Translations under genes and position numbers: made by a program
Notes under the pieces: generated by a model
Database searches by the model: none
The model's input: the letters and a program-made list of their open reading frames with translations, nothing else
Told to the model about the DNA's origin: nothing
Shown here: piece by piece, positions 611-33,426 of the stretch
Position numbering within the stretch: position 1 is the first letter of the stretch
Layout of the letters: the number at the start of each line of letters is the position of its first letter
Virus record (IMG/VR): IMGVR_UViG_3300031673_000273
Location: 1-33,851 of that record
DNA: 33,851 nucleotides
Origin: a virus
Reading direction: 5' to 3' (one strand)

Positions 611-1377
611 ACTACTTCCTGCCTTTCTACCTTCTCTACCCATCGGTCTCTTATCACTACATTCCCATTCTCTTTATTCCTGCTCCACACTATCTCCCCA
701 GCCACATTCTCCCTATACATTCTCTCCGCCAACTCCCACACACACATAGCTGTCAGCTGGTTCCCCATCGGACTCTGGTCTTCCCCATCCTCCACCATCC
801 CACACCCCTCGGCGTGCGTCTCCCCCTTCTCCTCCTTCTCTGCCTCCTCCTCTATGTCTGGATGTCTTGCCATCCAGTCTCCCGTTTTACTCTTATTCAT
901 TATCATACATCCATACGCATACCCATCCTCCAGTGTATTCCCCCCCGTTATACTCATCACCCTTCCACCTGGGACCACGTATCTTATTTCCATACAGGCC
1001 TTATGGATATCCACTCTCGTCCCGTGATTATCCGGCATCGTTATCATCACCACATTCCTATATTGTATACCTGGCTTTCCGCCCTTTACTATCATCTTAC
1101 TTGTTGCCCTCTCTACAAATCCCTTTAGACCTTGATGTACCCCCAACTCCCTCAGTATATCTATCGCCCTCATTACCTTTGCCTCATCTGGATTCCTGTT
1201 TATCCACTGTCTATTCCCATTCCTCTGCTCCACCACATCAGGGTCTATTAGAGCCGTATCCACATCCCCCCTCCTATGTATCCACGTAGCCATCCTCTCT
1301 ATTCCCTGGTAGAACACTCCACCACACCCCACCACTATCAGTAGGTTATCCCTTATTACTATCTTCTTTGTCTTCAT
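607..1377 (-). CDS. ThiF/E1-like adenylating enzyme, PRTRC-type
   Basis: The 256-aa protein has the ThiF/MoeB/E1 Rossmann signature: a glycine motif VVGCGG at residues 16-21, an acidic strand ALIDPDVVEQ followed by NGNRQ (the D-x-D and N-x-x-R-Q ATP-binding elements), and a following Lys. Proteins of this fold adenylate the C-terminal glycine of ubiquitin-like or sulfur-carrier proteins. The C-terminal third has a Cys followed by a Q-x5-N-Q-like stretch (GCGMVEDGEDQSPMGNQ), resembling the tail of PRTRC ThiF proteins rather than MoeB. A possible catalytic Cys lies there, but I cannot prove it. It sits between a beta-grasp gene upstream and an uncharacterised gene whose start overlaps its stop. 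Start chosen at the ATG after AAGGAGTG. A copy of the dispersed motif lies inside (966-980), read as VVPG. Family-level call is good; substrate unknown. Confidence 0.75.
   Translation of the reverse strand: MKTKKIVIRDNLLIVVGCGGVFYQGIERMATWIHRRGDVDTALIDPDVVEQRNGNRQWINRNPDEAKVMRAIDILRELGVHQGLKGFVERATSKMIVKGGKPGIQYRNVVMITMPDNHGTRVDIHKACMEIRYVVPGGRVMSITGGNTLEDGYAYGCMIMNKSKTGDWMARHPDIEEEAEKEEKGETHAEGCGMVEDGEDQSPMGNQLTAMCVWELAERMYRENVAGEIVWSRNKENGNVVIRDRWVEKVERQEVV
966..980 (+). repeat. Dispersed motif copy 1 (forward, unpaired)
   Basis: CACCTGGGACCACGT, exact 12-bp core 968-979. Lies in the E1-like gene, read as VVPG on the minus strand. The only copy without a partner in the window; the partner may lie before base 1. 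Confidence 0.85.
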
Positions 1378-1429
1378 TGTCTTACACTCCTTATTCCTGG
1401 TTATTATTTACTATGTTCCATATAATGAC

Positions 1430-1490
1430 ATGGGGGATATATCCTACTACGATAACCGCCCTTGGTTTCTCTTGTAGGTATATCCCCCAT
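1430..1490 (-). other. Long inverted repeat in the leader of the E1-like gene
   Basis: Arms at 1430-1447 and 1474-1490 pair almost perfectly: 17 of 18 positions with one single-base bulge, each arm ending in a run of five G or five C. The loop is 26 nt. It lies in the 125-bp gap between the beta-grasp and E1-like genes and would form in the minus-strand transcript. The T tract expected after a Rho-independent terminator is absent on the transcribed side, so an attenuator, processing site or protein-binding RNA element is as likely as a terminator. Confidence 0.6.
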
Positions 1491-1502
1491 TACACTGGAC
1501 TA

Positions 1503-2336: not shown

Positions 2337-2365
2337 TTGACAAACCTGGGACCACGTGTTATGAT
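2337..2365 (+). promoter_or_regulatory. Near-consensus sigma70 promoter with motif copy as its spacer
   Basis: TTGACA at 2337-2342, a 17-bp spacer, then TATGAT at 2360-2365. The 15-bp motif AACCTGGGACCACGT occupies spacer bases 2343-2357 exactly. Transcription would start near 2372, about 90 nt before the first gene at 2460. A protein bound to the motif would block RNA polymerase, so this copy reads as an operator. Confidence 0.75.
2343..2357 (+). repeat. Dispersed motif copy 3 (forward; doublet A right, operator position)
   Basis: Exact core 2345-2356. Occupies the spacer between TTGACA and TATGAT of the promoter at 2337-2365. Confidence 0.9.
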
Positions 2366-2459
2366 ACGTGCTGTGAATTATTTGATTATATTAGGTAACA
2401 AAGTTAAGGGAGTACGGCAATATAATAGGTCATTAAAAGAAACCAAGAAGGAGTCACGT

Positions 2460-2651
2460 ATGCAGAAGGTTAAATTTGGGACGGTTGTTAAAAATTGTCA
2501 CTTCCAAAGCGGAAATGTCGTTGTTAAATTTGATGGGCCAGCAATGATTGCCGTTGAGCATATCAGTCAAGCCCTCCTCAATCTAACAGAGATAATTAAG
2601 TCTCAACATATTGAAATAGGTGGATTACTCACCATCGAAGGAGCCAAGTAA
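2460..2651 (+). CDS. Small hypothetical protein (63 aa)
   Basis: Start chosen at the ATG at 2460, seven bases after AAGGAG; a longer frame to 2337 would run through the promoter and has no ribosome site. The protein reads as a short beta-rich domain (KFGTVVKNCHFQSGNVVVKF) followed by an amphipathic helix (EHISQALLNLTEIIK) and a short strand. No family recognised. Its stop overlaps the next start as TAATG, so it is coupled to the DUF1599-like gene. It is the first gene behind the motif-bearing promoter. Base use is AT-richer and lacks the C/T bias of the polymerase region. Confidence 0.7.
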   Translation: MQKVKFGTVVKNCHFQSGNVVVKFDGPAMIAVEHISQALLNLTEIIKSQHIEIGGLLTIEGAK

Positions 2652-3016
2652 TGGATAACGAAACATTTAACGAAATCCTCAAGACCCGTCAAGCCAAGAT
2701 GACCGCCGTTCTCGTAGCCAAAGCCGATGAGTACGCACGCGGTGACCGCCTCTCCAACTTCAAGAAGGCCGCCGTCCTCATGTCCTGCACACCCGAAGCC
2801 GCCCTCTTCGGTATGGTCGCCAAGCACATCGTCGCCATCACCGACTTCTGTGATGACCTCGCCAACGACACCATCCAACCCTACGTACGCTGGGACGAGA
2901 AACTCGGTGACATCATCAACTATATGGTCCTCCTCGATGCCCTCATCATCGAGCGTCTCCACTCCGTCCTCCCCACCAACCCCCTAACCATCGGCGGAGC
3001 CCGATTCAAGGAGTAA
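2651..3016 (+). CDS. DUF1599-like (nucleotide-modification-associated domain 1) protein
   Basis: The 121-aa all-helical protein matches the pattern of the DUF1599/Nmad1 family common in phages: KADEYARGDRLSNFKKAA (residues 24-41), a central MVAKHIVAITDF with a Lys-His pair, and a C-terminal EKLGDIINYMVLLDALI stretch. Such proteins are linked by context to phage nucleotide or base modification, and their fold resembles MazG-type pyrophosphatases; the reaction is not established. The gene overlaps the preceding one by one base and is followed by AAGGAG for the next. Its coding strand is strongly C-rich, unlike the AT-rich genes on either side, which suggests different histories within one transcript. 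Confidence 0.65.
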   Translation: MDNETFNEILKTRQAKMTAVLVAKADEYARGDRLSNFKKAAVLMSCTPEAALFGMVAKHIVAITDFCDDLANDTIQPYVRWDEKLGDIINYMVLLDALIIERLHSVLPTNPLTIGGARFKE

Positions 3017-3019
3017 CCA

Positions 3020-3346
3020 ATGGCAAAGACAACAGATAATAGAATACGAGACCTTGAGCAGGCAGTTGCAGAATTACAAGGATTAGGTCATTTTATTACA
3101 GTTAAAGATAACTTTGGACACGAGTACACACATCCTTATCCGTACAAGTACCCCATCCAGCCCATTGAGCCTCTGGACAGGGCATTTAGCGAGATTAAGC
3201 AGGGTGTCGCAAATATGAATGCCGAGCAGGACACGTGCGAAAGCTGTGAGCATCTTAAAATATATCAGGATTGTATCCATAAATGTACCAATTATTCCGA
3301 CTACGAACCGAAAGAGGAGAAGTGCTGGAGGCGAAGAGATGAGTGA
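3020..3346 (+). CDS. Hypothetical protein with C-terminal Cys cluster
   Basis: A 108-aa protein starting at the ATG at 3020 behind AAGGAG. The N-terminus is a likely coiled coil (IRDLEQAVAELQGL). A Pro/Tyr-rich linker follows (HPYPYKYPIQPIEP). The C-terminal third carries CESCEHLKIYQDCIHKC and a further Cys near residue 102, a spacing that could bind zinc. No family recognised. Its TGA overlaps the start of the DUF5662-like gene. Base composition is AT-rich, like the following three genes. Confidence 0.65.
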   Translation: MAKTTDNRIRDLEQAVAELQGLGHFITVKDNFGHEYTHPYPYKYPIQPIEPLDRAFSEIKQGVANMNAEQDTCESCEHLKIYQDCIHKCTNYSDYEPKEEKCWRRRDE

Positions 3347-3818
3347 AGCAAAATTCAAAACGATGAGACACATTGAAACAGTTAGAAATTTTATTGCCTG
3401 TGTGATTAAAGACTTGATGTATAGGCAAGAACAGCACGACCAAAGTAAACTGCAATCGCCAGAGGTTGAAATCTTTGAGGTCTATACTAATAAATTGCGG
3501 GACTGTGTTTATGCCTCTGACGAGTACAAAAAATATATGGCTGAAATGAAACCCGCTATTGACCATCACAATACCGTCAATAGACATCATCCAGAACACT
3601 TTGAGAACGGCATAGCTGGAATGAATCTGGTTGACTTAATTGAAATGTTATGCGACTGGAAGGCCGCAACATTAAGGCATAATACCGGAGATATTTACAA
3701 GAGTTTGGAGTTGAACCAAAAGCGATTTGGTTATTCGGATGAAATTAAAAAGATATTGGAAAATACAGTTGACTGGATTGAAGCGTGGCCAGTATTTCAT
3801 AAGGCAGAGGAATCTTAA
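3339..3818 (+). CDS. DUF5662-like phage protein
   Basis: The 159-aa protein starts at the ATG at 3339, overlapping the preceding stop; the frame is open further upstream but that part lies inside the previous gene. It shows the pattern of phage DUF5662 proteins: MRHIETVRNFI at the N-terminus, YRQEQHDQSKLQSPE (HD followed by SKL), DHHNTVNRHHPEHF near residue 80, and DLIEMLCDWKAATLRH. The repeated His and Asp residues look like a metal site of the HD type, but an enzymatic activity has not been shown for the family to my knowledge. It is common in phage accessory regions, consistent with its place here. Confidence 0.7.
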   Translation: MSEAKFKTMRHIETVRNFIACVIKDLMYRQEQHDQSKLQSPEVEIFEVYTNKLRDCVYASDEYKKYMAEMKPAIDHHNTVNRHHPEHFENGIAGMNLVDLIEMLCDWKAATLRHNTGDIYKSLELNQKRFGYSDEIKKILENTVDWIEAWPVFHKAEES

Positions 3819-3846
3819 ACTGCCGAAAGCAGAAAGGAGTTAGAAG

Positions 3847-4086
3847 ATGAGTAATTTACAGATAAAAATAGATGGGTTAGAAAATCTAATTGACCAGAAG
3901 GACGAGATTATTGCCGCCCAGCAAGCCCTGCTTGAGCAGCTGATGGGGGTGAGCAAAAAAGTTCTACTCGCGTTTCCTGACGTAATCCCAGCAGATAAAG
4001 AACAGATAGAATTTAACATTCCAGCATATATCATAGAGGAACTGAGAGTTGCCGTCGCCGCCGCAAAGAAAGGAGATAGCAGATGA
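3847..4086 (+). CDS. Small coiled-coil protein, related to the next gene
   Basis: A 79-aa protein behind GAAAGGAG. Residues 1-33 form a likely coiled coil ending in IIAAQQALLEQLMG; the C-terminal part reads IPAYIIEELRVAVAAAKKGD. The next gene repeats the same plan, including QQALIEQL and a C-terminal ALAAAKELK, so the two look like products of a duplication. The stop overlaps the next start (ATGATG/TGA). No family recognised. Confidence 0.65.
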   Translation: MSNLQIKIDGLENLIDQKDEIIAAQQALLEQLMGVSKKVLLAFPDVIPADKEQIEFNIPAYIIEELRVAVAAAKKGDSR

Positions 4087-4292
4087 TGGACGATGAAACT
4101 GTGTTGTCTTTGGAAATGGCAAAACTTGAGGTAAAGATTATTAACCAGCAAGCCCTCATTGAGCAGTTGGCGGCTTTGATTGGGGAGTGTAAACAGGAAG
4201 CGTCAAAATCACATAAGCATTGCGATATTGCAAGAATATACAGTATTTGCGAAGGTAGTATTGCCCTCGCCGCAGCAAAGGAGTTAAAATAA
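4083..4292 (+). CDS. Small coiled-coil protein, paralogue of the preceding gene
   Basis: A 69-aa protein with the segment IINQQALIEQLAALIG (residues 19-34), matching IIAAQQALLEQLMG of its neighbour, followed by CKQEASKSHKHCDIA and a C-terminal SIALAAAKELK. The start overlaps the previous gene and its TAA (4290-4292) overlaps the proposed non-AUG start of the polymerase gene. AAAGGAG within its last codons serves the polymerase. Function unknown. Confidence 0.65.
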   Translation: MMDDETVLSLEMAKLEVKIINQQALIEQLAALIGECKQEASKSHKHCDIARIYSICEGSIALAAAKELK

Positions 4293-6895
4293 TTAACTTT
4301 CCTGAACATAAAGATTGTACACTCTGTCCGATGCACGAATCGGCGACCCGACCTGGGATTCCAACACGCCCCCATTCAGTGGCCGACAAAGACACGGCCT
4401 TGCTTGTTGTGGGCGAAGCCCCAGGCTACCATGAAGACCTGGACTTCAAATCCTGGGTCGGCCCTGCCGGTCGCATCCTCACTCGGTTCCTCGATGCCGC
4501 TGGCTTCTCTGCCCACGCCGACATCTACCTCTCCAATGCCATCCGTTGCCGTCCTCCCCAGAACGGAGACCCTGGCTGCCGTTCCTGTAACGCCTGCCGC
4601 GTCCATCTCCAGACCGACCTGGATAATCTTATCACCAGTTACAAACATGTGGTTGTATTTTGTTGTGGAAAGTGGGGTACCTATGCCGTCACCAAAATGT
4701 CCGAACTGTCAAAGGGATTCAAACGCCAAGCTCACCTTCTTTCAACGTTCCCAGGTGGACTTACAAGTCCTGCGGGTTTTGATGTCCCTATCTTCTTCAC
4801 CTACCACCCCGCCATTCTGTTGCCAGGCCGCAAACCGGCCCTTATCGTCCCTGTTTCCGACCACTTCCGACTCCTCCAACGGTTCCTCATCGGAGAGTTC
4901 ATCCCCTCCTCCCTCCACATAACACCCCAATACGGGGCTCCTGTACCATCGGTGCTACCAAAACTTGTGGCCATAGATATAGAGACCTATGGCATCCTTG
5001 CTGGTGTCAATCAGACTGTCTTCCACCCTATCAAGTCTCTCCTCGTTGATGGTGTGCCCCTCTCAGAGCAAATAATCTCAATCTCATTCGGCTTCACGCT
5101 GACTACGGAAGCCAACGACACCGTATATCAAACCTTTGTCTATGACTTCCAGCAGCACAAGTATCTGATACACCGGTGGTTCAGAAGCCTCGTATCCAAC
5201 GGCTCCACCATCCTCGGCCAGAACACTAAATTCGATATCCAGTACCTACGTCTCTGTGACCCCGTACTTGCTACCATCCTGGACCCCACTCGTATCCGTC
5301 TCGATGACACGCTGCTGGGGTCCTTTCTTCTCTTTGAACAACGCCCTGAAAAAGGTCTCAAGGAACTCGCCACCCTCTTCGGTCTCACCGACTACACCCT
5401 GTCCTCTGTCACCGGTCGTCTCGGCAATGCCAAGTCCCGCACCGACCCAGCCCTCATTTATTACAACGCGCTCGACGTAGCGTGTACCCTCGCCCTCTAC
5501 TCATATACGTGGTCCCAGGTTGCGAAGGTATATGGACAAAATAGTTCCAAAATGTCCACTTTATGTGCCGAAATGAGAAATCAAATTTTATGGGACGTTA
5601 TCATGCTGGAGTCCTCTGGCATAGCCTTCAGTGTCCCCGAACTAAAAGCTCTCCACGCCCGCCACACTGCCCTTGCTGCCCAGCACACCGCTGTCGCCCT
5701 CTCCCACGGTGTCAAGGTAGGCGGCGTCGGCTCCGAGAAATCCTGCCGCTCCTTTATGACCGAAGCCCTCACGGAGCTCGGTCTCCTCAACGACTCTCGT
5801 GTCCAGCTCACCGAAAAGGCACGCAAGATAAGTGTAGGCCAGGAGAACTTCGGCCTCATCCTCTCGTGTTCTGGTCCTTCCTATGCTCACTGGGATACTC
5901 TCAACGCCCTCATCGGCTACCACACCTCGGCCAAAGTCCTCAACACCTATACCGGCAAGCTCCTCGACACTCCCTCTGTCGGTCTGGTCCGCCGCTACAA
6001 CTCCCTCGGCATTGCCTACCCTGCGTGGTATCCTATCCCTGCCAACATCGCCAAGGGCGGTCCTCAACCTGGGACCACGTTAGGTGGTACGATTCAAGGA
6101 AGATTTAGCTGCAAAACTCCCGCAGCCCAGACCTTCCCACCCGACGTCAAGCGTTGTATGACTACTCGATATGCTGGCGGCTTCCTCTCTGAGTTTGACC
6201 TCTCCCAGATAGAACTGCGTGGTGGTGCCCTCCTCTCCGGTGACCCCATTATGATAGACGAATACAGGCGAGGTATCGACCGTCATACCCAGACAGCCCT
6301 TGTTATCTGGCCTGACGCCGACCCACTCGCCCCTGACTTCAAGACTACCAAGCGTCAAGGAGGTAAGACCCTCAATTTCCTCGTCCTCTACCGTGGTGGT
6401 GCCCTGAAGTTCCAGGAAACCCTGCTCAAAGACCACAACATCTACATTGAATTAGAGAAATGTCAAGCCGCTATCGACCTGTTCAACACTCGCTATCATC
6501 ACTTCCGTGAATGGCAGGACCGCAACATCGACACGGTCAAGCGGCTCGGTTACCTTGAACTACCGACCGGCTGGTCCCGCAACTGGGGCAAGGGTCTCGG
6601 CGGTCTCGTCGATTCCATCAGTGAAATCTGTGACTTCCCCATCCAAACCATAGCTGCCCAGACCCTCCAGAATGCCCATTTTATGATAGAGTGTAAACGT
6701 CAAGCCCTCCATCTTAAGAGTAAGGTAGTCTGTCAGATACACGACTCCCTGTACGTGGATGGTCCTCCCGACGAGGAAAAAATAATGGATGAAATCGTAG
6801 GATTTTACTTGACAAACCCCCCATTATGGACTATACTATGTAATACGTTAGGACGTACCGTTCCATTACTGTACGAAAAGAAGAAGCTAAGATAG
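4292..6895 (+). CDS. Family-4 uracil-DNA glycosylase fused to family-A DNA polymerase
   Basis: Replicative polymerase with a glycosylase-like N-terminus. Numbering from the internal ATG at 4331: GEAPG at 28-32, VGPAG at 43-47, NAIRCRPP at 69-76, CRSCNAC at 83-89 and TYHPA near 160 are family-4 UDG motifs with Fe-S cysteines. The 3'-5' exonuclease shows AIDIE near 214, GQNTKFD near 296 and YNALD near 377. The polymerase shows motif A DLSQIELR near 622, motif B RQGGKTLNFLVLYRG near 675 and motif C QIHDS near 802, where the usual Glu after HD is Ser. The first Fe-S pair, CTLC, lies upstream of the ATG in the same open frame, which has no ATG, GTG or TTG. I therefore place the start at ATT 4292, eight bases after AAAGGAG (ATA 4289 is an alternative). 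Two motif copies form a doublet inside the gene. Confidence 0.85.
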   Translation: MNFPEHKDCTLCPMHESATRPGIPTRPHSVADKDTALLVVGEAPGYHEDLDFKSWVGPAGRILTRFLDAAGFSAHADIYLSNAIRCRPPQNGDPGCRSCNACRVHLQTDLDNLITSYKHVVVFCCGKWGTYAVTKMSELSKGFKRQAHLLSTFPGGLTSPAGFDVPIFFTYHPAILLPGRKPALIVPVSDHFRLLQRFLIGEFIPSSLHITPQYGAPVPSVLPKLVAIDIETYGILAGVNQTVFHPIKSLLVDGVPLSEQIISISFGFTLTTEANDTVYQTFVYDFQQHKYLIHRWFRSLVSNGSTILGQNTKFDIQYLRLCDPVLATILDPTRIRLDDTLLGSFLLFEQRPEKGLKELATLFGLTDYTLSSVTGRLGNAKSRTDPALIYYNALDVACTLALYSYTWSQVAKVYGQNSSKMSTLCAEMRNQILWDVIMLESSGIAFSVPELKALHARHTALAAQHTAVALSHGVKVGGVGSEKSCRSFMTEALTELGLLNDSRVQLTEKARKISVGQENFGLILSCSGPSYAHWDTLNALIGYHTSAKVLNTYTGKLLDTPSVGLVRRYNSLGIAYPAWYPIPANIAKGGPQPGTTLGGTIQGRFSCKTPAAQTFPPDVKRCMTTRYAGGFLSEFDLSQIELRGGALLSGDPIMIDEYRRGIDRHTQTALVIWPDADPLAPDFKTTKRQGGKTLNFLVLYRGGALKFQETLLKDHNIYIELEKCQAAIDLFNTRYHHFREWQDRNIDTVKRLGYLELPTGWSRNWGKGLGGLVDSISEICDFPIQTIAAQTLQNAHFMIECKRQALHLKSKVVCQIHDSLYVDGPPDEEKIMDEIVGFYLTNPPLWTILCNTLGRTVPLLYEKKKLR
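5507..5521 (-). repeat. Dispersed motif copy 4 (reverse; doublet B left)
   Basis: Exact core 5508-5519 in the polymerase gene, read as TWSQV. Partner 560 bp to the right. Confidence 0.85.
6066..6080 (+). repeat. Dispersed motif copy 5 (forward; doublet B right)
   Basis: Exact core 6068-6079 in the polymerase gene, read as PGTT. Confidence 0.85.
6809..6837 (+). promoter_or_regulatory. Strong sigma70-like promoter inside the polymerase 3' end
   Basis: TTGACA at 6809-6814, a 17-bp spacer and TATACT at 6832-6837 lie within the last codons of the polymerase gene. Transcription would begin about 65 nt before the ERCC4-type nuclease. The spacer has no motif copy, in contrast to the promoter at 2337. 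Confidence 0.55.
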
Positions 6896-6907
6896 GACAT
6901 TAAACCT

Positions 6908-7510
6908 ATGGGTTATCGAACTCCTGGACCACTTCCTGATTGTCTCACCGTGCAAATTGACACACGGGAGAAGTATCCGATACCCTTCCCCTCTAACATC
7001 AGAGTCGAACATCCATTACATTGTGAAAAGTCTGTCCTCATCCCTATAAAGACTGAGCGTATCTGCCTGCACGCAGGCGACTATCGCCTTAAACAATACT
7101 CCGACTGCTGTGTCATCGAAAGAAAAGGTTCACAGCTTGAGCTGCAAAAGAACCTCTTTAACTTGGCAGATATGGTGCGGACTGCGAAAGCCTTCCGCTG
7201 CCTGTCTGCCGTCCAGCACCCTGTCCTTCTGGTTGAGGTCTCCCCCGTCTCTCTCCTTGCTACCCGCCCTGAAGTCCCGACACCCGAACAATTGATGCAG
7301 CGTCTGATGATGGTCGCTGCCAAGTATGGTCTCCAACTCATTTGTGTACCTCAGACCTCCTCGACCTCTTCGCGTCGGGCTATGGGTCTGATGCTTATCC
7401 ACCTTATGTTAGCGTACGGTCTTGCCAGTCAGCTTGACCTGCCGCTTAATGAAATAAAAGAAAATGATACAACGTGCGTGGTCCCAGGTGGGGAGCTGGT
7501 TCAGTGTTGA
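6908..7510 (+). CDS. ERCC4 (XPF)-type structure-specific nuclease
   Basis: The 200-aa protein carries the ERCC4 nuclease signature in order: VQIDTREKYP at residues 15-24, AGDYRL at 56-61 and CVIERKGS at 68-75, the D-RE...GDY...ERK metal site of XPF/Mus81-type nucleases. Such enzymes cut branched or flap DNA near junctions. No helix-hairpin-helix follows, so this is a minimal single-domain phage form. It sits directly behind the polymerase and has its own promoter-like sequence at 6809-6837, suggesting a part in processing replication intermediates. The C-terminal CVVPGG is encoded by a motif copy at 7476-7490, and the stop lies inside a terminator hairpin. Confidence 0.8.
   Translation: MGYRTPGPLPDCLTVQIDTREKYPIPFPSNIRVEHPLHCEKSVLIPIKTERICLHAGDYRLKQYSDCCVIERKGSQLELQKNLFNLADMVRTAKAFRCLSAVQHPVLLVEVSPVSLLATRPEVPTPEQLMQRLMMVAAKYGLQLICVPQTSSTSSRRAMGLMLIHLMLAYGLASQLDLPLNEIKENDTTCVVPGGELVQC
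7476..7490 (-). repeat. Dispersed motif copy 6 (reverse; doublet C left)
   Basis: Exact core 7477-7488, read as VVPG at the end of the ERCC4-type nuclease. It abuts the terminator stem starting at 7491. Partner 524 bp to the right. Confidence 0.85.
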
Positions 7511-7532
7511 GCCAGTTCCCTCCTGATTTTTT
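7491..7532 (+). terminator. Rho-independent terminator after the nuclease gene
   Basis: Arms 7491-7502 and 7509-7520 form a 12-bp stem with G-U pairs and a 6-nt loop, followed by TTTTTT at 7527-7532. It starts one base after the reverse motif copy and contains the nuclease stop codon. Confidence 0.75.
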
Positions 7533-7544
7533 AGGAGTAACAAA

Positions 7545-7661
7545 ATGATTCTCGCAGAACTCACACTCGTAGGCTGGAACGTGCTGGGCTGGGGCGTTGC
7601 GATATTCAGTACCGCAATGATATTCAGCAAGTTATTTTGGAAAATGGTAGATAGGCTTTGA
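7545..7661 (+). CDS. Small single-pass membrane protein (38 aa)
   Basis: An ATG at 7545 follows TTAGGAG at ideal spacing and opens a 38-codon frame ending in TGA. The peptide has a hydrophobic core, NVLGWGVAIFSTAMIF at about residues 12-27, then a basic tail (SKLFWKMVDRL), so it should be a one-segment membrane protein with the positive end inside. It sits between two terminators and beside another short gene. Size and topology allow a holin-like or superinfection-exclusion role, but there is no direct evidence for either. Confidence 0.6.
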   Translation: MILAELTLVGWNVLGWGVAIFSTAMIFSKLFWKMVDRL

Positions 7662-7751
7662 AGTCCCCTGAATAATTCAGATGAGTTTACTGCCCGAATG
7701 GTTTGGGTAGAGATAAATCTTGCACATATAAAAGAAAGAATAGGTATACTT

Positions 7752-8000
7752 ATGGCAACACTTAATGAATGGTTGGATACAGTACTGGCGAAGGTTACGG
7801 ACACGAACGGCAAAGCCGACAGCCTGATTGTTCTGTTCAAGGAGTTACAGGCCCAGATAGTTGAAGGTCTGAAACTTACTCCTGAACAAGAGACAAAGTT
7901 ACAAGCTATCGTTGACGAGGCATCGGCACAGGCTGCGGAGATTGACGAAGCCATTGGTGCAACACCCGAAGAGCCTCCGGTTGAAGAGCCGGTCGCCTAA
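7752..8000 (+). CDS. Small helical hypothetical protein (82 aa)
   Basis: The frame is open from 7698, but that ATG has no ribosome site; I choose the ATG at 7752, giving 82 residues starting MATLNEWLD. The protein is predicted to be mainly helical (LKELQAQIVEGLKLTPEQETKL is typical of a helix-turn-helix bundle, not DNA binding) and ends in an acidic, Pro-rich tail (EEPPVEEPVA). The pattern resembles short phage structural accessory proteins, with no firm family. Its TAA (7998-8000) is overlapped by the forward motif copy at 7999-8013. Confidence 0.55.
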   Translation: MATLNEWLDTVLAKVTDTNGKADSLIVLFKELQAQIVEGLKLTPEQETKLQAIVDEASAQAAEIDEAIGATPEEPPVEEPVA

Positions 8001-8013
8001 CCTGGGACCACGA
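7999..8013 (+). repeat. Dispersed motif copy 7 (forward; doublet C right)
   Basis: Exact core 8001-8012. Overlaps the stop of the 82-aa gene and lies 20 bp before the terminator at 8033. Confidence 0.85.
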
Positions 8014-8032
8014 ACAATTTAGTAATTACGAT

Positions 8033-8078
8033 AAGGGGTCATCCGTTGGGCTTGTCCCTCCGGTAATGCCCCTTTTTT
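8033..8078 (+). terminator. Rho-independent terminator before the 207-aa gene
   Basis: AAGGGG (8033-8038) pairs with CCCCTT (8069-8074), with weaker pairing inside, followed by TTTTTT (8073-8078). It lies 20 bp after the forward motif copy. The AGGAG of the next gene begins right after the T run. Confidence 0.65.
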
Positions 8079-8089
8079 AGGAGAATACA

Positions 8090-8713: not shown

Positions 8714-8721
8714 GAGACTAA

Positions 8722-9981: not shown

Positions 9982-9998
9982 CGTAACCTGTGCTCACA

Positions 9999-10041
9999 AA
10001 GAGAGTTATAAAAATAATTAAAATTATTTTATTTTTCTCTT
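9999..10041 (+). terminator. AT-rich hairpin after the solenoid gene, overlapping a promoter
   Basis: AAGAGA (9999-10004) pairs with TCTCTT (10036-10041), and AAAATAATT (10011-10019) with AATTATTTT (10022-10030). The low GC content makes it a weak terminator candidate. Its right arm runs into the -35 box at 10040. Confidence 0.4.
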
Positions 10042-10068
10042 GACATCCCTTGTATTTTGTGGTAGGAT
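10040..10068 (+). promoter_or_regulatory. Sigma70-like promoter before the lipoprotein-like gene
   Basis: TTGACA at 10040-10045, a 17-bp spacer and TAGGAT at 10063-10068. The predicted start of transcription, about 10075, falls at the ATG of the gene (10076 or 10082), so the message would be leaderless or nearly so. No motif copy is present. Confidence 0.5.
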
Positions 10069-10075
10069 AAGAGTT

Positions 10076-11060: not shown

Positions 11061-11112
11061 TGTCCAATTATAATTTCTAATTTGTTTCATGTAATGAAGA
11101 TAAGGAGTCTTT

Positions 11113-11490: not shown

Positions 11491-11515
11491 CCAACCTATA
11501 AGATAAGGAGCCATA

Positions 11516-24051: not shown

Positions 24052-24069
24052 AATTATTTCCTTTGACTA

Positions 24070-24480: not shown

Positions 24481-24495
24481 TGTTACCTTCCTATC

Positions 24496-25716: not shown

Positions 25717-25727
25717 TTTTATATTCC

Positions 25728-27395
25728 TTATGGTCTATTACCACTAAATTCTGTTGCGGCTGCTGAGGATGGCCACTGGTCGGCATTACGTGCCATCGCC
25801 GCCTGCTGTATTGTTTGCCCCTGAGGATTTAGATTCCCATACGTAAAAGTTGTAGGCTTAGCCGCAGCCTTTGGCGTAGCTGGTGTATTTGCCACCGCAG
25901 CCTGTGTTTGTGCCTGTGCCTGTGCTTGGGGCTTTTGTGTTTGCGTTCCAGTTCCTTGTCCACCACCACCGAAACTCCAACCACCAGAATTAGCATTTGC
26001 CAAATCTTGTTCCTGATTGGCATTCTTGATTAAATCCGACAGGAACGTTACAAGCGGTACAGCCGATATAAACACTGTAGGCGTTGCAATCAGCCAATTT
26101 GCCCAGCTTTCTTGCCCCGCATCTATTAGTTGTGCCACATTCAGATTCAGTTGACTTTCCTGCAACGCATAGTTCGCTGCCGCCAACGCATACTGTTTGC
26201 CCATCTCCAGCCGGTTCTGTTCCGAATACTGTATATTCGTAGCCATCGCTATCTCTGCCTGTATTCCCGCACTTCCTAATGTAGTAAGAGCCCCAAACCC
26301 CATCTTTGCATATTCTAAATCCTGCTGCACCTTCAGTGTATCGTATGCCAACTTCATCTGTGCTTCCAGTTTGGCACTATTTGACATAATACTGCTGGAC
26401 AGTGTAGCCAATGTTTGCTGCTTCTGTGCCTGGAACTGTGCATACTCCGCACTGTCCGTTCCATAGGCCGACCTTATATTTCGCTCTTCTTCACCCATTG
26501 TCCCCATCGTCTGCTGCACTGCTACCTGCATATCGTGAGCAGTCGTCTTCGCCAGTATCGACGAATCGTAATCCACACTGGGCTTCCCAAAATCTAATAC
26601 TTTTTGGAGCTCCGTTTGCAATTTATCAACATGACCCATCACGTCAGCCATTCGTTTGTTTGAGGCAGCCACATACTCATCCGCCTTCGCAAGAGTGTTC
26701 GTCCACGCGTCTGATGCCTTGGCACGTCCAGTCGCAGCATCCTTCGATATCTGTGCCAGATTTGCCATCAACGTCTCTGTTGCCTTCTTCTTTTCAATTA
26801 GACCTGCCTGATTCTTTGCTGTCTCCACTTCACCCATCTTCGACTGAGCAACGTAATCCTGTATCCGTGCACTAGCAGCTGCCAATGTTGCCATATCTCC
26901 TTCTGGTATCGAATCCAGTAATGCCGCTACATCCTTCAAGCCATACTGTTGAGCCAATGTCTTGGTATTCTGGAGAGTACCCTTATACGCAGCAAGCTGT
27001 GCAGGTGTCTGTGCCGCAGTCGTCGGTTGTGCACCTGGATTCGGCATTCCCTGTACGCCTGGTGTTGGAGAAAGTTTCCCCGCCCACGGGTCATACTTGG
27101 GAACCGCCGGTGTCGCCTGCGATGCCTGCATTGCATCAAACTGGTCCTTCGGTATTCCGCCCCCAGGATATACGGGCTGAGCTACTTCACTCTGTGCCCC
27201 TATCATACTTAACTGTGGAACGTCTCCGAGTGTCGGTGTCACAATCCCTGAACCCGACATCGCTTGTGCTGTAGGATTATACCCGCTTGTTGCCATATTC
27301 CCCGTTGGTATAGTCGAAATCTCTGGAACACCGGCGACCGGAGTCCCCATCAACGAAGACCTAAACGGGTCAAATGTATTTTTTGGTATTGCCAT
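25728..27395 (-). CDS. Internal virion-like protein with Gln/Ala linker (555 aa)
   Basis: Starts behind AAGGACG. The N-terminal 110 residues are Pro/Gly/Thr-rich and low-complexity. Residues about 120-410 are long helices (FQAQKQQTLATLSSSIMSNS), possibly a bundle. A hydrophobic stretch (WLIATPTVFISAVPLVTF) near residue 435 could enter a membrane. The C-terminal part contains a linker of QAQAQTQ type followed by a Pro-rich tail. The plan suits a virion core or ejection protein. No family recognised. Confidence 0.55.
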   Translation of the reverse strand: MAIPKNTFDPFRSSLMGTPVAGVPEISTIPTGNMATSGYNPTAQAMSGSGIVTPTLGDVPQLSMIGAQSEVAQPVYPGGGIPKDQFDAMQASQATPAVPKYDPWAGKLSPTPGVQGMPNPGAQPTTAAQTPAQLAAYKGTLQNTKTLAQQYGLKDVAALLDSIPEGDMATLAAASARIQDYVAQSKMGEVETAKNQAGLIEKKKATETLMANLAQISKDAATGRAKASDAWTNTLAKADEYVAASNKRMADVMGHVDKLQTELQKVLDFGKPSVDYDSSILAKTTAHDMQVAVQQTMGTMGEEERNIRSAYGTDSAEYAQFQAQKQQTLATLSSSIMSNSAKLEAQMKLAYDTLKVQQDLEYAKMGFGALTTLGSAGIQAEIAMATNIQYSEQNRLEMGKQYALAAANYALQESQLNLNVAQLIDAGQESWANWLIATPTVFISAVPLVTFLSDLIKNANQEQDLANANSGGWSFGGGGQGTGTQTQKPQAQAQAQTQAAVANTPATPKAAAKPTTFTYGNLNPQGQTIQQAAMARNADQWPSSAAATEFSGNRP

Positions 27396-27409
27396 ATTTA
27401 ACGTCCTTA

Positions 27410-29680
27410 CTAGGTAGACGATACCCGTCTACTCTCCGTCATTGTAACACTTACTTCCATATTTGTCAACTCAAAACTTGTCCCAGCCGAAATTTGTTCT
27501 ACATACGGCTCCACATCCACCCCATCCCCCGCTAGATTTGCTACCGTAGTTGATGGATTCAACCCCACCGTAATCTCCGCCGTGTTCTCCGACAGTGTAG
27601 GACTACTGTTCCGGTAGCTTCCCACCCTCATCACATTGTTTGGATTATCCGTAAATCCCACTAAATTCCGTACTTTTACCGCCATCCCACCGATATTCCA
27701 CCTCTTAAACTTACTCATCGGCTTTATTGGATAATCACTCTGGTCTGTCAGCGGCCAGCATCTCACCCTAAACGGTACTGCACATACTGCGAACGTGGTC
27801 CCAGGTGCGAGGATACTGCTAAATTCAGTGGCTGTAGTTATTTTATGGGTTGCCGCTGTGTAATCTGATATAATAGCGGACTCTCCTGCACAGTCCCCAT
27901 TGGTCACATACACATACGACCCAATACAGGAGGCAGGCAAATCAATGCCTGTATCTATGATTTCAGACACAGTCCCCCTTGCCGTCACGGTTCCATTGTA
28001 CGTATAGGTCGTCCCATCCGCGTCAGTCGGCAATCCCCACATCGTCCCAGTCCCCGTCGCATACGCATCTGGGACCACGATAAGGCTCGTATCCGTCACA
28101 AAATATGCCCTCATACTTCCAGTTCCCGTCACGTCGGGGCCGTGGGTCATCGCATTGAAGTTTGCTCCCTCTATCAGGGACGTCGAATGTGTGGACGCCC
28201 ACACACACAATATCTCGGCTTGGTTAGGATTCAGGAAAAATGACGCGTTCATTATGGCATCATACCCACTTCTGACATCCGAGAGGTCGGTTGCCCATTC
28301 ATCCAGTATGATGCGGTCGGTCGCAGAGATTTGTCCCATTGTTCCATCTGCCGCGTTGAATATCATCAGTCCCATCCCTGACACAAAGAATATACTGGTG
28401 CCGCTGGTATGACCAGCCTCTTTCCCCACCAATCCTCTTTCCTGCTGTACCACATTATATTGTAATGGTCTCCCCGTCGCCCCCTTAAATATATGAATTA
28501 CACCGGTAGGTGAGAACGCAAACAGTGAATCTGCCCCCTTGAAAAACCTCAGCGTTCTTCCCTCATCTGCACTTCCCTTTCTCCTATTATATGTCGTGAA
28601 GTATTCCGCAGCTTCACTCTCCATCGCACTATGCAGTATGTCGTACTGGGTCGCTGCCGCCGTCAGCGGATTCAGGGACTCTCCCACAAACGTAATCCCC
28701 TGATACCGTCCGATGGTGGACGTATATGGAATAGCACTCACAACACTAGTGAGTGGATTATATTGTGTCTGGAACGGCAGAGCCTCATCGAGCAGTGTTC
28801 CAAAGTATCCGCTGCCCATTCCCTCGGTGTCAAAATCAACAGCCAAATCAAGAGTAGATTCCAGATAGAATATAGCTCCTTTACCTCCCGACATATCAAT
28901 CGTTCGGTAGAAATCTATCATATCAAAGCCCGCAGCCAGAGCCGCTGCCGCAGGCACATTATAACTGCATTTTCCATAGTTATAAGTGTCAGACGCAGGG
29001 ATACGTGCGGTTCGCGGTAAACTCAATGCACTGTATAGCTGTGCCGATGAGTTGTAGAACCTGTATGCCATCTGATAAAGACCATCCTGATTTAGGAAGT
29101 AAGTATCGGTTGTATCCAGTGATGCACTAAGGGCAGTCATCGCCGCCGGTGCCGCAGTAAATACTGTTCCAGCTCCCATATCCCGCACAACCAGCGTGGT
29201 ATCCTGATATTGCACCGTCTTGGGTGCAACACCCTCAATACACACAAATAGGAAGTTCCGGTGTACAGCTACGTCAATCGCTGTATCCCACAACACATCA
29301 TTGTCACTGTATACGGCAAACCAGTCCCACGTATCTCCATCATCCTCCGTATACACCAAGTCTATCTGCATATTGGTACTGGTTGTCTTATGCCTATGGG
29401 CTATCACAAATCCCCTATATGTGATGGCCGTATCCGTCTTCTGAAACGCCACACACTTGATAAAGTATATGCCTCCATTCGCCAGCTCAGCCGTCATCCC
29501 TGTGATTGTATTCAGGTCAAGCGTCAGATTCATTCCAAAGAACTTCCGCAGGCAGCCCATAAAGCGGCCATCAACTCCCACCAGTCTCGGAAAGGTTCCT
29601 GGCCTCACCTGATTCGGCGGCATACTTGCGTCCATCATCGGACCCACTATCGGATACTGTACATAACTATCATACGGCAT
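27410..29680 (-). CDS. Tail protein, tubular-B-like candidate (756 aa)
   Basis: The frame is open to 29737, but ATG 29680 follows GAGGTG by four bases and overlaps the glycosyltransferase stop, so it is the best start. The protein is almost wholly beta-structured, with repeated Thr/Gly/Ser/Tyr patterns such as TAPAAMTALSASLDTTDTYF and TSIFFVSGMGLMIFNA, suggesting a propeller-like or stacked-sheet fold. Its size and place, after the adaptor-like protein and before the internal proteins, match the T7 tail tubular protein B position. That assignment is by context. A motif doublet (27793-27807, 28066-28080) lies near the 3' end, encoding APGTTF and VVPD. Confidence 0.5.
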   Translation of the reverse strand: MPYDSYVQYPIVGPMMDASMPPNQVRPGTFPRLVGVDGRFMGCLRKFFGMNLTLDLNTITGMTAELANGGIYFIKCVAFQKTDTAITYRGFVIAHRHKTTSTNMQIDLVYTEDDGDTWDWFAVYSDNDVLWDTAIDVAVHRNFLFVCIEGVAPKTVQYQDTTLVVRDMGAGTVFTAAPAAMTALSASLDTTDTYFLNQDGLYQMAYRFYNSSAQLYSALSLPRTARIPASDTYNYGKCSYNVPAAAALAAGFDMIDFYRTIDMSGGKGAIFYLESTLDLAVDFDTEGMGSGYFGTLLDEALPFQTQYNPLTSVVSAIPYTSTIGRYQGITFVGESLNPLTAAATQYDILHSAMESEAAEYFTTYNRRKGSADEGRTLRFFKGADSLFAFSPTGVIHIFKGATGRPLQYNVVQQERGLVGKEAGHTSGTSIFFVSGMGLMIFNAADGTMGQISATDRIILDEWATDLSDVRSGYDAIMNASFFLNPNQAEILCVWASTHSTSLIEGANFNAMTHGPDVTGTGSMRAYFVTDTSLIVVPDAYATGTGTMWGLPTDADGTTYTYNGTVTARGTVSEIIDTGIDLPASCIGSYVYVTNGDCAGESAIISDYTAATHKITTATEFSSILAPGTTFAVCAVPFRVRCWPLTDQSDYPIKPMSKFKRWNIGGMAVKVRNLVGFTDNPNNVMRVGSYRNSSPTLSENTAEITVGLNPSTTVANLAGDGVDVEPYVEQISAGTSFELTNMEVSVTMTESRRVSST
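27793..27807 (-). repeat. Dispersed motif copy 16 (reverse; doublet H left)
   Basis: Exact core 27794-27805, read as PGTT in the 756-aa tail protein. Partner 274 bp to the right. Confidence 0.85.
28066..28080 (+). repeat. Dispersed motif copy 17 (forward, variant; doublet H right)
   Basis: Core 28068-28079 begins T instead of C (TCTGGGACCACG), encoding VVPD on the minus strand. Confidence 0.75.
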
Positions 29681-30290
29681 TAAACACCTCATCAAGCCAT
29701 ACCCTATTTGTATGCCTGCATCGCACAGTAGGGTCAATCTTTATTGTAAACTTTGCCTGCTTCGCCTTCTGTGTAAAGTAAATATCTTCCGACAGTACAT
29801 AACCAGAGCGGTAATAATTTGTCCTAAACCACGGCCACTCCAACGTCTCCAACACCTTGCGTTTTATCAAGAGCGTCGTGCCGCCCATCGCGTCTACCTC
29901 AAACGGCTCTATGAGTTCCTTGTTGTGTGGAATCATAATATAATATTTATTTTGCCTATCATACTTACACACATTCCACCACCGTCCCCCGTGATACCAC
30001 ACCGGACAAAGCCCCCCTGCAATATCACAATCCAACGCCAGGAGTTTCTCAATAGCATCATCAGGCGGGACAACATCAGAATCCAAGAAAAACAAATGTG
30101 TAAATCGTGGATTCTTCAGAAAGAGGTCAACCAGTGCATTGCGGCCCTCTTCGGCTGCTCTCGACGGCCATCCATACCAATCTATGTTTTTCTTTACAGC
30201 CTGACTAAGCCAGCGAGCTGTCCCTAGCTGTATCCAGGACTCCAACCCTACTGGGATTCCGACAAGTATTTTTGTTGGTTGTTCTACCAT
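29670..30290 (-). CDS. GT-A glycosyltransferase-like protein
   Basis: I place the start at ATG 30290, overlapping the previous stop (ATGGTAG); the longer reading from 30320 also lacks a ribosome site. The 206-aa protein starts TKILVGIPVGLESWIQL, has the nucleotide-sugar DxD motif in LFFLDSDVVPPDDAIEKLL near residue 67, then GGLCPVW and a later DAMGGTTLLIKRKVLE, as in family-2-like GT-A enzymes, with SEDIYFTQKA near 175 as the likely acceptor-side acidic motif. In this context it may glycosylate a virion protein, a host receptor or modified DNA. Lying inside the tail operon makes a virion substrate the simplest idea. Confidence 0.75.
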   Translation of the reverse strand: MVEQPTKILVGIPVGLESWIQLGTARWLSQAVKKNIDWYGWPSRAAEEGRNALVDLFLKNPRFTHLFFLDSDVVPPDDAIEKLLALDCDIAGGLCPVWYHGGRWWNVCKYDRQNKYYIMIPHNKELIEPFEVDAMGGTTLLIKRKVLETLEWPWFRTNYYRSGYVLSEDIYFTQKAKQAKFTIKIDPTVRCRHTNRVWLDEVFNAV

Positions 30291-30634
30291 TTTTTTACTG
30301 GGCAATGAGCCGACTCCCATTTAACTTTGCGTTCCAATACACACCCACACTTCACATTGGTACATCTCATTTGTTCATTCTTCAGAATCATCTGATTACA
30401 TTCTCGACATAACTTCAAACAACCTTCCTGTTGTTCCGCCGTTCGTTCCTTCATCCCGTTCAACAGATGGCGTGCAGTCGCCACCGTAAAATTGGCCGCC
30501 ATCTGCGGCACAGACGGCAGCTCCGGTTTAGGTTCCCCTGGGTGCATCTTCCGCCAGCACTTCCCGCAATAAATTGTCGAACACCATATCTTCCTGGTTT
30601 CACAATATCCATTTTGAGTTAGGGGACACGTCAT
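30284..30634 (-). CDS. Cys-rich zinc-ribbon-like protein (116 aa)
   Basis: The start overlaps the previous stop as ATGA. The protein has an N-terminal cluster CPLTQNGYCETRKIWC with CGKC near residue 23, a helical middle (TARHLLNGMKERTAEQQ) and a C-terminal CRECNQ...CTNVKCGCVLERKVKW...CPVKKW. The C-x2-C plus C-x4-CGC plus CP-x-KW pattern is that of small zinc-ribbon proteins seen beside tail genes in many phages. It could fold around two zinc ions. Function unknown; probably a tail-associated or assembly factor. Confidence 0.6.
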   Translation of the reverse strand: MTCPLTQNGYCETRKIWCSTIYCGKCWRKMHPGEPKPELPSVPQMAANFTVATARHLLNGMKERTAEQQEGCLKLCRECNQMILKNEQMRCTNVKCGCVLERKVKWESAHCPVKKW

Positions 30635-31326
30635 AATGTATCCTCACATGGGTCCCACGTCAAATCTGCCTGTCCTCCTGTATAACAGGCCGTATTACAA
30701 CTTGGATACGAAGCACATACCATATCTGGAATAATAGGAATATACGACGCACATCCGGCACCGGCACCACTCCATACACAAGGTGCGGCTGTATGAACCA
30801 CCGAAAGAGTTGTTATTCCCGCTCCAATGAACAGGTTCATAATAACACCCCCCTCTACATACAAGTAGAAGTAGCATGACGTTCCAGACTCACCAATATA
30901 ATCGAGAGTATAAACTCCATTTATATCTGGACAACCACACATAGGAGGACTACAATCTGATACAAGGGGGCAACTCGTAATCCCAGAGAGCGTTACGTGA
31001 ATATGAGACGGTACAAACGTATATGGCCAGAGCTGGTTTGAACAATAAGTGCATACTTCACAGCAGCACTTATCCCCCTCCGGTATCGTGATTTGAGGAG
31101 CTCCTGCTTCCGTCAAACACCCATAGAAAAAATCAAAGGCATCGCGGGCATCACAATATGGTGACTGTGCATTTCCAATCGCACCAGCATACTGAGGTCG
31201 TAGCTTCCCCGTGACAGTAGTTCCCACACACCCATAAAATGGGTATGCCGTACAGGGGTCTACCCACTTAGGCTTAAACACACCTGCATTATCTTCCCAA
31301 CAACCTGTAATTACCTTATCACCCAT
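30631..31326 (-). CDS. Cys-rich secreted-type or virion surface protein (231 aa)
   Basis: The ATG directly follows the stop of the collagen-like gene. More than 20 Cys occur in 231 residues, including CCCEVCTYC near residue 88 and CPLVSDCSPPMCGC near 120, with many Tyr, Pro and Gly. No signal peptide is visible. So many Cys suggest several metal ions or disulfides, as in some proteins on virion surfaces. The middle (DINGVYTLDYIGESGTSCYF) looks like a beta sandwich. The family is not recognised. It lies between a collagen-like and a zinc-ribbon protein in the tail block. Confidence 0.55.
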   Translation of the reverse strand: MGDKVITGCWEDNAGVFKPKWVDPCTAYPFYGCVGTTVTGKLRPQYAGAIGNAQSPYCDARDAFDFFYGCLTEAGAPQITIPEGDKCCCEVCTYCSNQLWPYTFVPSHIHVTLSGITSCPLVSDCSPPMCGCPDINGVYTLDYIGESGTSCYFYLYVEGGVIMNLFIGAGITTLSVVHTAAPCVWSGAGAGCASYIPIIPDMVCASYPSCNTACYTGGQADLTWDPCEDTL

Positions 31327-31327
31327 A

Positions 31328-31891
31328 TTAACACATCACAAATGTTCCGGTCCCATCCTCTCCAGTTGCACCCGTCACACCCGTCGCTCCAGTTGCTCCA
31401 ATATCTCCATCAAGACCTGCATCTCCCTGTACTCCCTGTACTCCCTGTATTCCCTGCACTCCTTGCACTCCCTGTATTCCCTGTGCACCTGTTGCCCCAG
31501 CTTCACCAGTAGCCCCAGCAGCTCCAGCGGCACCGTCATCTCCTGGAAGACCTGGTAATCCATCAATACCATCGGCTCCAGGAGGTCCAGCGGGGCCCTC
31601 CGGTCCCTGTTCCCCTCCAATATTGTACGTGTTGTTAAGGGTATCGCCACCCTCAACCGTAATATCTCCAGCCTGGAGTGTTGTCTGGGTATTGAAGCCT
31701 GCCAGATTCCCTCCCACTACCGAATTAGGGTCAAGTATATTAAAACTAAAGATGCCCTCACCCCAGGGTGTCACCATCTTGCGTCCGTCAAACGGCACCA
31801 CACCCACTCCAGGTGTGTAGTCTCCTGCCAGCTGCGGCATCGGCAATGTCTCAGACGTATTCTTCCCAGGAGCATAAAATAAATCACCCAC
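31328..31891 (-). CDS. Collagen-like virion protein (187 aa)
   Basis: Starts at a GTG whose first base is the last base of the preceding stop, with CGGAGAA upstream. The first about 90 residues form a small globular part (GDITVEGGDTLNNTYNIGGE). Residues about 92-180 are Gly-X-Y triplets (GPAGPPGADGIDGLPGLPGD, then GIQGVQGVQGIQGVQGVQG), a triple-helix fibre motif. It ends FVMC. Collagen-like segments in phages build trimeric fibres or stalks. It sits immediately after the adaptor-like gene, so it is likely part of a tail appendage. Slippage of the tandem GIQGVQG repeats could vary its length. Confidence 0.75.
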   Translation of the reverse strand: MGDLFYAPGKNTSETLPMPQLAGDYTPGVGVVPFDGRKMVTPWGEGIFSFNILDPNSVVGGNLAGFNTQTTLQAGDITVEGGDTLNNTYNIGGEQGPEGPAGPPGADGIDGLPGLPGDDGAAGAAGATGEAGATGAQGIQGVQGVQGIQGVQGVQGDAGLDGDIGATGATGVTGATGEDGTGTFVMC

Positions 31892-33426
31892 TATGGCATT
31901 CTCCGAGGACGACTACGTCCATTGTATGTATCGGCTCTCTGTTTTCCGGCATCCGCCAGATTAGAATAAAACGCATTCAGTCTCAAATTCCGTATACTCT
32001 TCTGATATGACTTCTCCAGCAACAAATGCCGTATCTTATCCCCCTCTATCGCCGCCACTGACATCGCCACATAGCTGCTTATTGCCAAATCCAACCCCTG
32101 ATGTATGGGAGGTGCAATCTCATAGTACGTGGTCCCAGATTGAGGGTTTGGGTCAAGGGCCACGTCAAGTGTCGCCACACGTGTCACAGGGTCATAGGCT
32201 GTAATCGTACGTTCCTGCTGATAGTCATAGGTAGATTCCGTAGACCTGAGCACCCTGAGCAGACTTCCTGCGTACGCATTGGCGTGCGTGTCCAGGCTCC
32301 CTGTCACGGGTGTTGCCCCAAACGTCACCAGCAATCCTGTCGTATCCACTGTACACGTCCCATTATGCAGTTTCGCTGTCCCGCTCGGCAGGTATTCCAC
32401 CGTCACCGCATCACCTGGGACCACGGCGTTTGGTTGTATGTGCAGGATGTCACCCTCTCGCCATACCTGACGGCCAGAGGGACTGTATTCACTCTTGGAA
32501 TCATAGAAGACTTTGCAACCTGAATCATTACTTATGTAGATGGCCCGTACTGCCCCGATGTGGGTCGGCAGTTTGTATGTTTCTTGTCCCGACACAGCCG
32601 TCACGTTGAAGCGTGCGACTATTGGTTCCTGATTCAGCCGGTTCAGTTCGTTGATAACTTCAGCATATCCCTGTTCTATCTTGCCCAGCAGCACTGCATC
32701 CGTATACTTGGCGTTAATCACCGGCTCATCGACCAGCAACCTAAAGTCAGCAATGGCCCGTGCGATAAATCCACCCGTCACATATCCCTCAGCCCCGATT
32801 GTCCCTAAGTCTATTGCAGTCCCCAGGGGCTTCGTAAATGCAGTATTTGCAGCGGGCATTATAATCCGATGTTCGGTACCTGCTGTACTAAAACTATATC
32901 CTGCCTTGTTACAAAATACATAGTGATTACCTGCTGTCAGGTTTAAGGTCACTACCCCACTTGCATTTGTAGTTTGGGGGGCTGTAATAGACCCCGTACT
33001 ATCGTTAGAGTCATTGACCCAAACGATAACATCCTTCATTGCTACTTCAGCCGTAGTCTGTATCGTAATCGTTGCTACATATGCTCCAACCCCCGCTTCT
33101 AGTGTTGTCTTTATATCTCCCGCCTCATCCGGATATATGATTATTACTGTAGGCATATTACTGACAACATCTGATGTTCTAACTTGTATTACTATACAAT
33201 CCCCATCCATCTCATCTGCTGTCAAATCCAGATAATAAATACCTGAATCAGTTGCTATCTCTACTGCCTCTGATGTTACGTCTGCGAAAGTCGCGCCATC
33301 AATACTTACTTCACTATCAAGGTCAGCGGCACCAGTTATCAGTCCACCTATCGCGTCATAAATAGGGAAATAAATCCGACAGGCGACATTCCTACGTGGG
33401 ATGGGTTTTGCTTGTTCTGCACTCAT
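31891..33426 (-). CDS. Adaptor-like virion protein with N-terminal Ig-like region (511 aa)
   Basis: Starts behind GAGGAG. Residues 1-200 look like one or two beta-sandwich domains (TIQTTAEVAMKDVIVWVN, ASGVVTLNLTAGNHYVF), probably surface-exposed or carbohydrate-binding. Residues from about 240 show the adaptor/tail-tubular-A pattern: KIEQGYAEVINELNRLNQEP, ETYKLPTHIGAVRAIYIS, GDILHIQPNAVVPGDAVTVEY, and a C-terminal helical part ending RPRRMP. T7-like phages have a smaller adaptor (about 190-200 aa) here, so this would be a fused or enlarged form. The motif doublet 32127-32141/32412-32426 lies inside, encoding SGTT and VVPG. Confidence 0.55.
   Translation of the reverse strand: MSAEQAKPIPRRNVACRIYFPIYDAIGGLITGAADLDSEVSIDGATFADVTSEAVEIATDSGIYYLDLTADEMDGDCIVIQVRTSDVVSNMPTVIIIYPDEAGDIKTTLEAGVGAYVATITIQTTAEVAMKDVIVWVNDSNDSTGSITAPQTTNASGVVTLNLTAGNHYVFCNKAGYSFSTAGTEHRIIMPAANTAFTKPLGTAIDLGTIGAEGYVTGGFIARAIADFRLLVDEPVINAKYTDAVLLGKIEQGYAEVINELNRLNQEPIVARFNVTAVSGQETYKLPTHIGAVRAIYISNDSGCKVFYDSKSEYSPSGRQVWREGDILHIQPNAVVPGDAVTVEYLPSGTAKLHNGTCTVDTTGLLVTFGATPVTGSLDTHANAYAGSLLRVLRSTESTYDYQQERTITAYDPVTRVATLDVALDPNPQSGTTYYEIAPPIHQGLDLAISSYVAMSVAAIEGDKIRHLLLEKSYQKSIRNLRLNAFYSNLADAGKQRADTYNGRSRPRRMP
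32127..32141 (-). repeat. Dispersed motif copy 18 (reverse, variant; doublet I left)
   Basis: Core 32128-32139 reads TCTGGGACCACG on the minus strand, encoding SGTT in the adaptor-like protein. Partner 286 bp to the right. Confidence 0.75.
32412..32426 (+). repeat. Dispersed motif copy 19 (forward; doublet I right)
   Basis: Exact core 32414-32425, read as VVPG in the adaptor-like protein. Confidence 0.85.

Follow-up and report, generated by a model that had tools for sequence, protein, structure and literature searches.

Inverted doublets of a 12-bp asymmetric sequence, mostly within genes, in a probable phage genome fragment

The sequence CCTGGGACCACG occurs 16 times exactly and three times with one mismatch on the two strands of the 33,851-bp DNA that was analysed here in its entirety (the window; IMG/VR virus record IMGVR_UViG_3300031673_000273, linear), which is probably a fragment of a phage genome. 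All but one of these copies belong to inverted doublets, and one copy lies in the spacer of a strong promoter match. We propose, with a probability of about one half, that the sequence is the asymmetric site of a phage DNA-binding regulator, most likely a repressor, that would act together with paired auxiliary sites distributed throughout the genome. The promoter overlap is the strongest functional clue, as this site is placed where an operator would be.

The site, its copies and their pairing

The one-mismatch copies are those at 19163 (-), 28068 (+) and 32128 (-), and our recount agrees with the 16 exact and three altered copies claimed in a preliminary description of this DNA, each altered copy carrying a single change. 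The conserved site extends slightly beyond 12 bp and can be written as M-A-CCTGGGACCACG-W, with abrupt edges: A is found at position -1 in 18 of the 19 copies, and A or C at position -2 likewise in 18 of 19. It has no dyad symmetry, and its density amounts to 19 copies per 33.9 kb. Partial matches are not in excess beyond these copies: the window holds only one further sequence with two mismatches and 16 with three. The former, CCTGCGACCAAG at 22609 (-), was considered a chance match and was not counted, since shuffled sequences allow 2.2 hits with two or fewer mismatches; the conserved A that precedes the core is also missing from it.

Codon-preserving shuffles, run as a check on the motif count, contained on average 0.08 and at most two exact intragenic copies against the 13 observed, so the excess that had been claimed holds. 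The exact-site count is also far above that of dinucleotide shuffles, and no unrelated 10-mer in the window has more than four copies. Short words within the motif are not clearly avoided in a way suggestive of a restriction site, and no known RNA family or tRNA was found in the window. The copies are as follows.

Copy 1, 968-979, +: single, no partner in the contig; in ThiF-like ORF, antisense (VVPG)
Copy 2, 2237-2248, -: left of doublet 1; intergenic, 108 bp upstream of copy 3
Copy 3, 2345-2356, +: right of doublet 1; operator position within promoter spacer
Copy 4, 5508-5519, -: left of doublet 2 (560 bp); in DNA polymerase gene, antisense (TWSQV)
Copy 5, 6068-6079, +: right of doublet 2; in DNA polymerase gene (PGTT)
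Copy 6, 7477-7488, -: left of doublet 3 (524 bp); 3' end of ERCC4-like ORF (VVPG)
Copy 7, 8001-8012, +: right of doublet 3; abuts the TAA stop of ORF 7698-8000
Copy 8, 12311-12322, -: left of doublet 4 (723 bp); in PD-(D/E)XK nuclease gene (RGPR)
Copy 9, 13034-13045, +: right of doublet 4; 5' end of Sak4-like AAA gene (PGTT)
Copy 10, 16059-16070, -: left of doublet 5 (706 bp); in ORF 15358-16575 (VVPG)
Copy 11, 16765-16776, +: right of doublet 5; in ORF 16433-16840 (HLGPRK)
Copy 12, 19163-19174, -: one change, left of doublet 6 (330 bp); in ORF 18859-22089 (NLGPL)
Copy 13, 19493-19504, +: right of doublet 6; in ORF 18859-22089, antisense (VVPG)
Copy 14, 22865-22876, +: left of the sole + ... 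- doublet (314 bp); in ORF 22090-24051, antisense (VVPG)
Copy 15, 23179-23190, -: right of the + ... - doublet; in ORF 22090-24051 (PGTT)
Copy 16, 27794-27805, -: left of doublet 8 (274 bp); in ORF 27410-29737 (PGTT)
Copy 17, 28068-28079, +: one change, right of doublet 8; in ORF 27410-29737, antisense (VVPD)
Copy 18, 32128-32139, -: one change, left of doublet 9 (286 bp); in ORF 31891-33426, weakly SU10-adaptor-like (SGTT)
Copy 19, 32414-32425, +: right of doublet 9; in ORF 31891-33426, antisense (VVPG)

The copies thus make up nine inverted doublets and one single site (968, +), with short gaps of 108 to 723 bp and long gaps of 1.27 to 4.6 kb. Long and short gaps alternate without exception along all 18 gaps, and a separation of the two classes this complete arose in only 4 of 200,000 random placements. 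The nine spacings given earlier (108, 560, 524, 723, 706, 330, 314, 274 and 286 bp) were all correct on recheck; they share no common helical phase. The unbroken alternation of orientation through the first 13 copies, for which the chance is 2^-12, was likewise reproduced. The pairing of copies in opposite orientation stands for all nine doublets and can be refined, as eight of them share the polarity - ... +, the reverse being found only at 22865 (+)/23179 (-), while the copy at 968 is unpaired.

Close relatives of the window were found neither by protein searches nor by a distant DNA search, and one candidate relative was discarded, as it is 39% identical in a single protein and lacks the motif. 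Patterns of doublets with spacings of about 91 to 151, 271 to 331 and 501 to 561 bp were absent from the IMG/VR records scanned, from which records very near the window may have fallen outside. A soil Bacteroidetes MAG was also rejected as a carrier, its two one-mismatch copies being attributable to chance, with no exact copy in that genome. No second genome carrying the motif was found in IMG/VR or in the genome contigs, the latter having been scanned for the doublet pattern.

Promoter overlap and gene setting

The match that overlaps copy 3 is the following.

2337-2365, +: sigma-70-type promoter match, TTGACA-17 bp-TATGAT with extended -10 (TG), reading into the rightward operon

It agrees with the consensus at 11 of 12 positions and is one of three sites with a 17-bp spacing that are that good in the window. 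Copy 3 is contained in its spacer (2343-2359), with the partner copy at 2237 lying 108 bp upstream, and by a rough estimate, the probability that any motif copy would fall by chance within one of the three spacers is about 0.01. The roles that had been listed for the motif were a looping operator, a nucleoid or partition site and a recombination or replication site; the promoter lends support to the operator reading. For the remaining 18 copies, no strong promoter match was found in the same spacer register.

Genes are arranged leftward from about 1 to 2000, rightward from 2337 to 18607 and leftward again from 18859 to 33851. The rightward genes encode a uracil-DNA-glycosylase/PolA-type polymerase fusion, an ERCC4-like protein, a PD-(D/E)XK nuclease and a Sak4-like AAA protein, and the leftward genes resemble virion genes, the SU10-adaptor match being weak and under the Pfam cut-off. 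Because 16 of the 19 copies lie inside ORFs, in a window with a coding fraction of 0.93, and 10 of 19 are oriented with transcription, the placement of the sites reflects neither the gene borders nor the direction of transcription. Among the three copies outside ORFs, two are located in the intergenic region before the rightward operon. The site, its copy number, the geometry of the doublets, the promoter overlap as a sequence and this lack of orientation bias are all seen directly.

Within genes, the reading frame is not random, since 12 of the 16 intragenic copies encode PGTT/SGTT or VVPG/VVPD (p of about 0.0008, the two frames having been picked from the six after the fact). PGTT occurs four times in the window proteins against 0.26 expected, and VVPG six times against 0.15; the DNA word therefore appears to shape the proteins and not the reverse. 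A preference for two frames would be anticipated for a DNA site that is retained at positions where the protein can accommodate it. When the polymerase is aligned with homologues, no gap appears at codon 580, so the copy there probably arose by substitution rather than by insertion of a 12-bp element; the copy at codon 393 adjoins a six-residue gap.

Other features were observed in the window. The + strand of the first 2 kb is strongly pyrimidine-rich, and GC skew is negative across most of the contig despite the switch in transcription at about 18.7 kb, this single sign suggesting a replication-linked strand bias. Individual genes and arrays include the following.

607-1377, -: ThiF/E1-like ORF (Pfam ThiF, E 3e-6, just under the cut-off)
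1503-1703, -: 66-aa ORF near the ThiF/E1-like ORF, by eye resembling a small ubiquitin-like/ThiS-type protein
4331-6895, +: uracil-DNA glycosylase domain fused N-terminally to the PolA-type DNA polymerase
29670-30320, -: glycosyltransferase-like gene amid virion genes, with distant cyanophage relatives
31416-31484: array of 9-bp tandem repeats in a collagen-like ORF (31328-31891, -)

A possible repressor operator and the alternatives

From these features we infer that a protein, presumably a repressor, binds the site, bridges paired copies and silences the genome. Bound at 2345, such a protein would exclude RNA polymerase from the rightward promoter, and the inverted partner at 2237 would serve as an auxiliary operator, 108 bp upstream, through looping. 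At the other doublets, which are mostly intragenic, two oppositely oriented bound proteins would bridge the intervening 274 to 723 bp into a small loop, and/or they would block elongating polymerase arriving from either direction, and the outcome could be the silencing of the whole phage genome. By analogy, the C1 operators of P1 and the early-promoter operator of cluster A phages with its dispersed sites may be taken as precedent. Several findings count against the operator reading: only one of the 19 copies is at a promoter, intragenic sites without orientation bias are unlike the known elongation-blocking sites, which are inactive on reversal, and the doublet spacings lack a common helical phase. 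The window also yielded no recognisable gene for a repressor, an integrase or any other lysogeny function, an absence that weighs little in what is probably a fragment. One small ORF may be mentioned here.

11113-11490, +: small ORF, probably containing a helix-turn-helix segment (weak HTH-type hits only)

Speculatively, this ORF may encode the protein that binds the site; it is a weak candidate, and the window offers no other. Its AlphaFold model, built from the single sequence, is of low confidence (pLDDT 49). It is also conceivable, if doubtful, that a phage-encoded bridging protein uses the intragenic inverted doublets across the genome to fold the DNA into a series of small loops, by which it would be silenced or packaged. 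To our knowledge, a loop-based system for the control of a whole genome has not been described for phages.

The distribution of the sites over both gene modules and both directions of transcription, mostly inside genes and as strict doublets, would also suit architectural or segregation sites, that is, a phage protein that folds, condenses or partitions the genome through the doublets, with the promoter overlap being secondary. We consider this rather unlikely, as the overlap (about 0.01 by chance) would then be unexpected and no ParA/ParB-like gene was recognised among the scanned window proteins; moreover, partition sites are usually clustered and not dispersed. A use of the doublets by phage replication proteins, for entry, pausing or recombination, seems improbable to us, even though the window encodes a PolA-type polymerase, a Sak4-like protein and a PD-(D/E)XK nuclease and the sign of the GC skew is constant across most of the contig while transcription changes direction. 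The sites have no link to any replication gene, inversion between intragenic sites would break genes, and there is no strand bias such as that of Chi-type sites.

Each doublet has two inverted arms of 12 bp, which could in principle pair as RNA or single-stranded DNA stems in long-range hairpins. Nevertheless, a stem does not need one sequence common to all doublets, and the flanks are barely more alike within doublets than between them (6.1 vs 5.4 of 16 positions). In three doublets (19163, 28068 and 32128), a change affects one arm only, although that at 28068 still allows a G-U pair, and because these single-arm changes are unmatched in the other arm, stem formation is disfavoured and would be a very improbable explanation. 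A library artefact was also weighed, in which the sequence of one amplification primer ending in ...CGTGGTCCCAGG would have remained on either end of amplicons of 108-723 bp; the - ... + polarity and the spacing are exactly what convergent priming by a single primer gives. However, in many genes the reading frame runs unbroken through the motif into the coding sequence to its left and right, which primer-terminated reads could not give, two copies vary at the would-be primer 3' end, the frames are non-random and one doublet has the wrong polarity; for these reasons, a PCR-primer artefact is unlikely, and we grant it only a very small chance. Furthermore, the 14-mer AACCTGGGACCACG is present in at least 40 IMG/VR contigs, none of which has clustered copies of the core: the 11-bp core occurs once in each, with one exception that has two in the same direction.

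Comparison with known systems

The genome of phage P1 is dotted with 22 copies of an asymmetric 17-bp site, the C1 operator (PMC8546580). In the P1 annotation, Oref (1962-1978) lies inside the -35/-10 spacer of P2ref, and inverted pairs are found at OpmgRa/b, 49 bp apart, and at Obana/b. The motif resembles these operators in its asymmetry, its dispersal, an operator located in a spacer and the existence of inverted pairs. In contrast, the P1 operators are mostly at promoters or between genes and few are paired, whereas 16 of 19 motif copies are intragenic, nearly all are in inverted doublets and only one of 19 overlaps a strong promoter match; the C1 site is also unrelated in sequence. Neither a C1-like protein nor another repressor family was recognised among the scanned proteins of the window, the contig probably being a fragment.

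Cluster A mycobacteriophages such as L5 and Bxb1 carry 20 to 30 copies of an asymmetric site of 13 to 14 bp, one at the early promoter and most elsewhere (PMC6550527), and these elongation-blocking stoperators lose their function when reversed (PMC9283540). The motif is similar to them in size, asymmetry, number and density, but stoperators keep one direction relative to transcription and are mainly intergenic, while the motif is divided 10 to 9, is mostly intragenic and forms inverted doublets. We checked this contrast, which had been claimed in the preliminary description, directly in the cluster A phage 20ES, and it holds: its intergenic sites uniformly have the - orientation in the left arm and the + orientation in the right, and most sites are intergenic or partly so. 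The sign relative to transcription in 20ES depends on the consensus strand used, and it is the uniform direction that matters here. Thus, the motif is a dispersed short asymmetric site as stoperators are, and we rejected it as a stoperator set on orientation and location, both of which were reproduced in 20ES; by analogy, it may work like stoperators all the same. A tblastn search of the window with the 20ES repressor gave no match better than E 1.1, in a contig that is probably incomplete.

In the looping systems of gal, lac and lambda CI, the promoter operator is accompanied by an auxiliary site at a distance of about 100 bp or more, an arrangement that the motif shares. These systems have few, palindromic sites at one locus, in contrast to the nine dispersed doublets of an asymmetric site described here. 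In the literature, we found no paper describing such inverted doublets, and the paired-site layout is not seen in the known phage systems that we compared. The motif itself offers a bait of 12 to 14 bp for fishing out the protein that binds it. The best-known dispersed repressor sites that block elongation work in a single direction with respect to transcription and are mostly absent from genes; if our reading is true, near-invariant inverted pairs would instead be written into coding genes, the imposed amino acids being accepted, and the genome would be under a different form of control, exerted through many small loops or two-way roadblocks.
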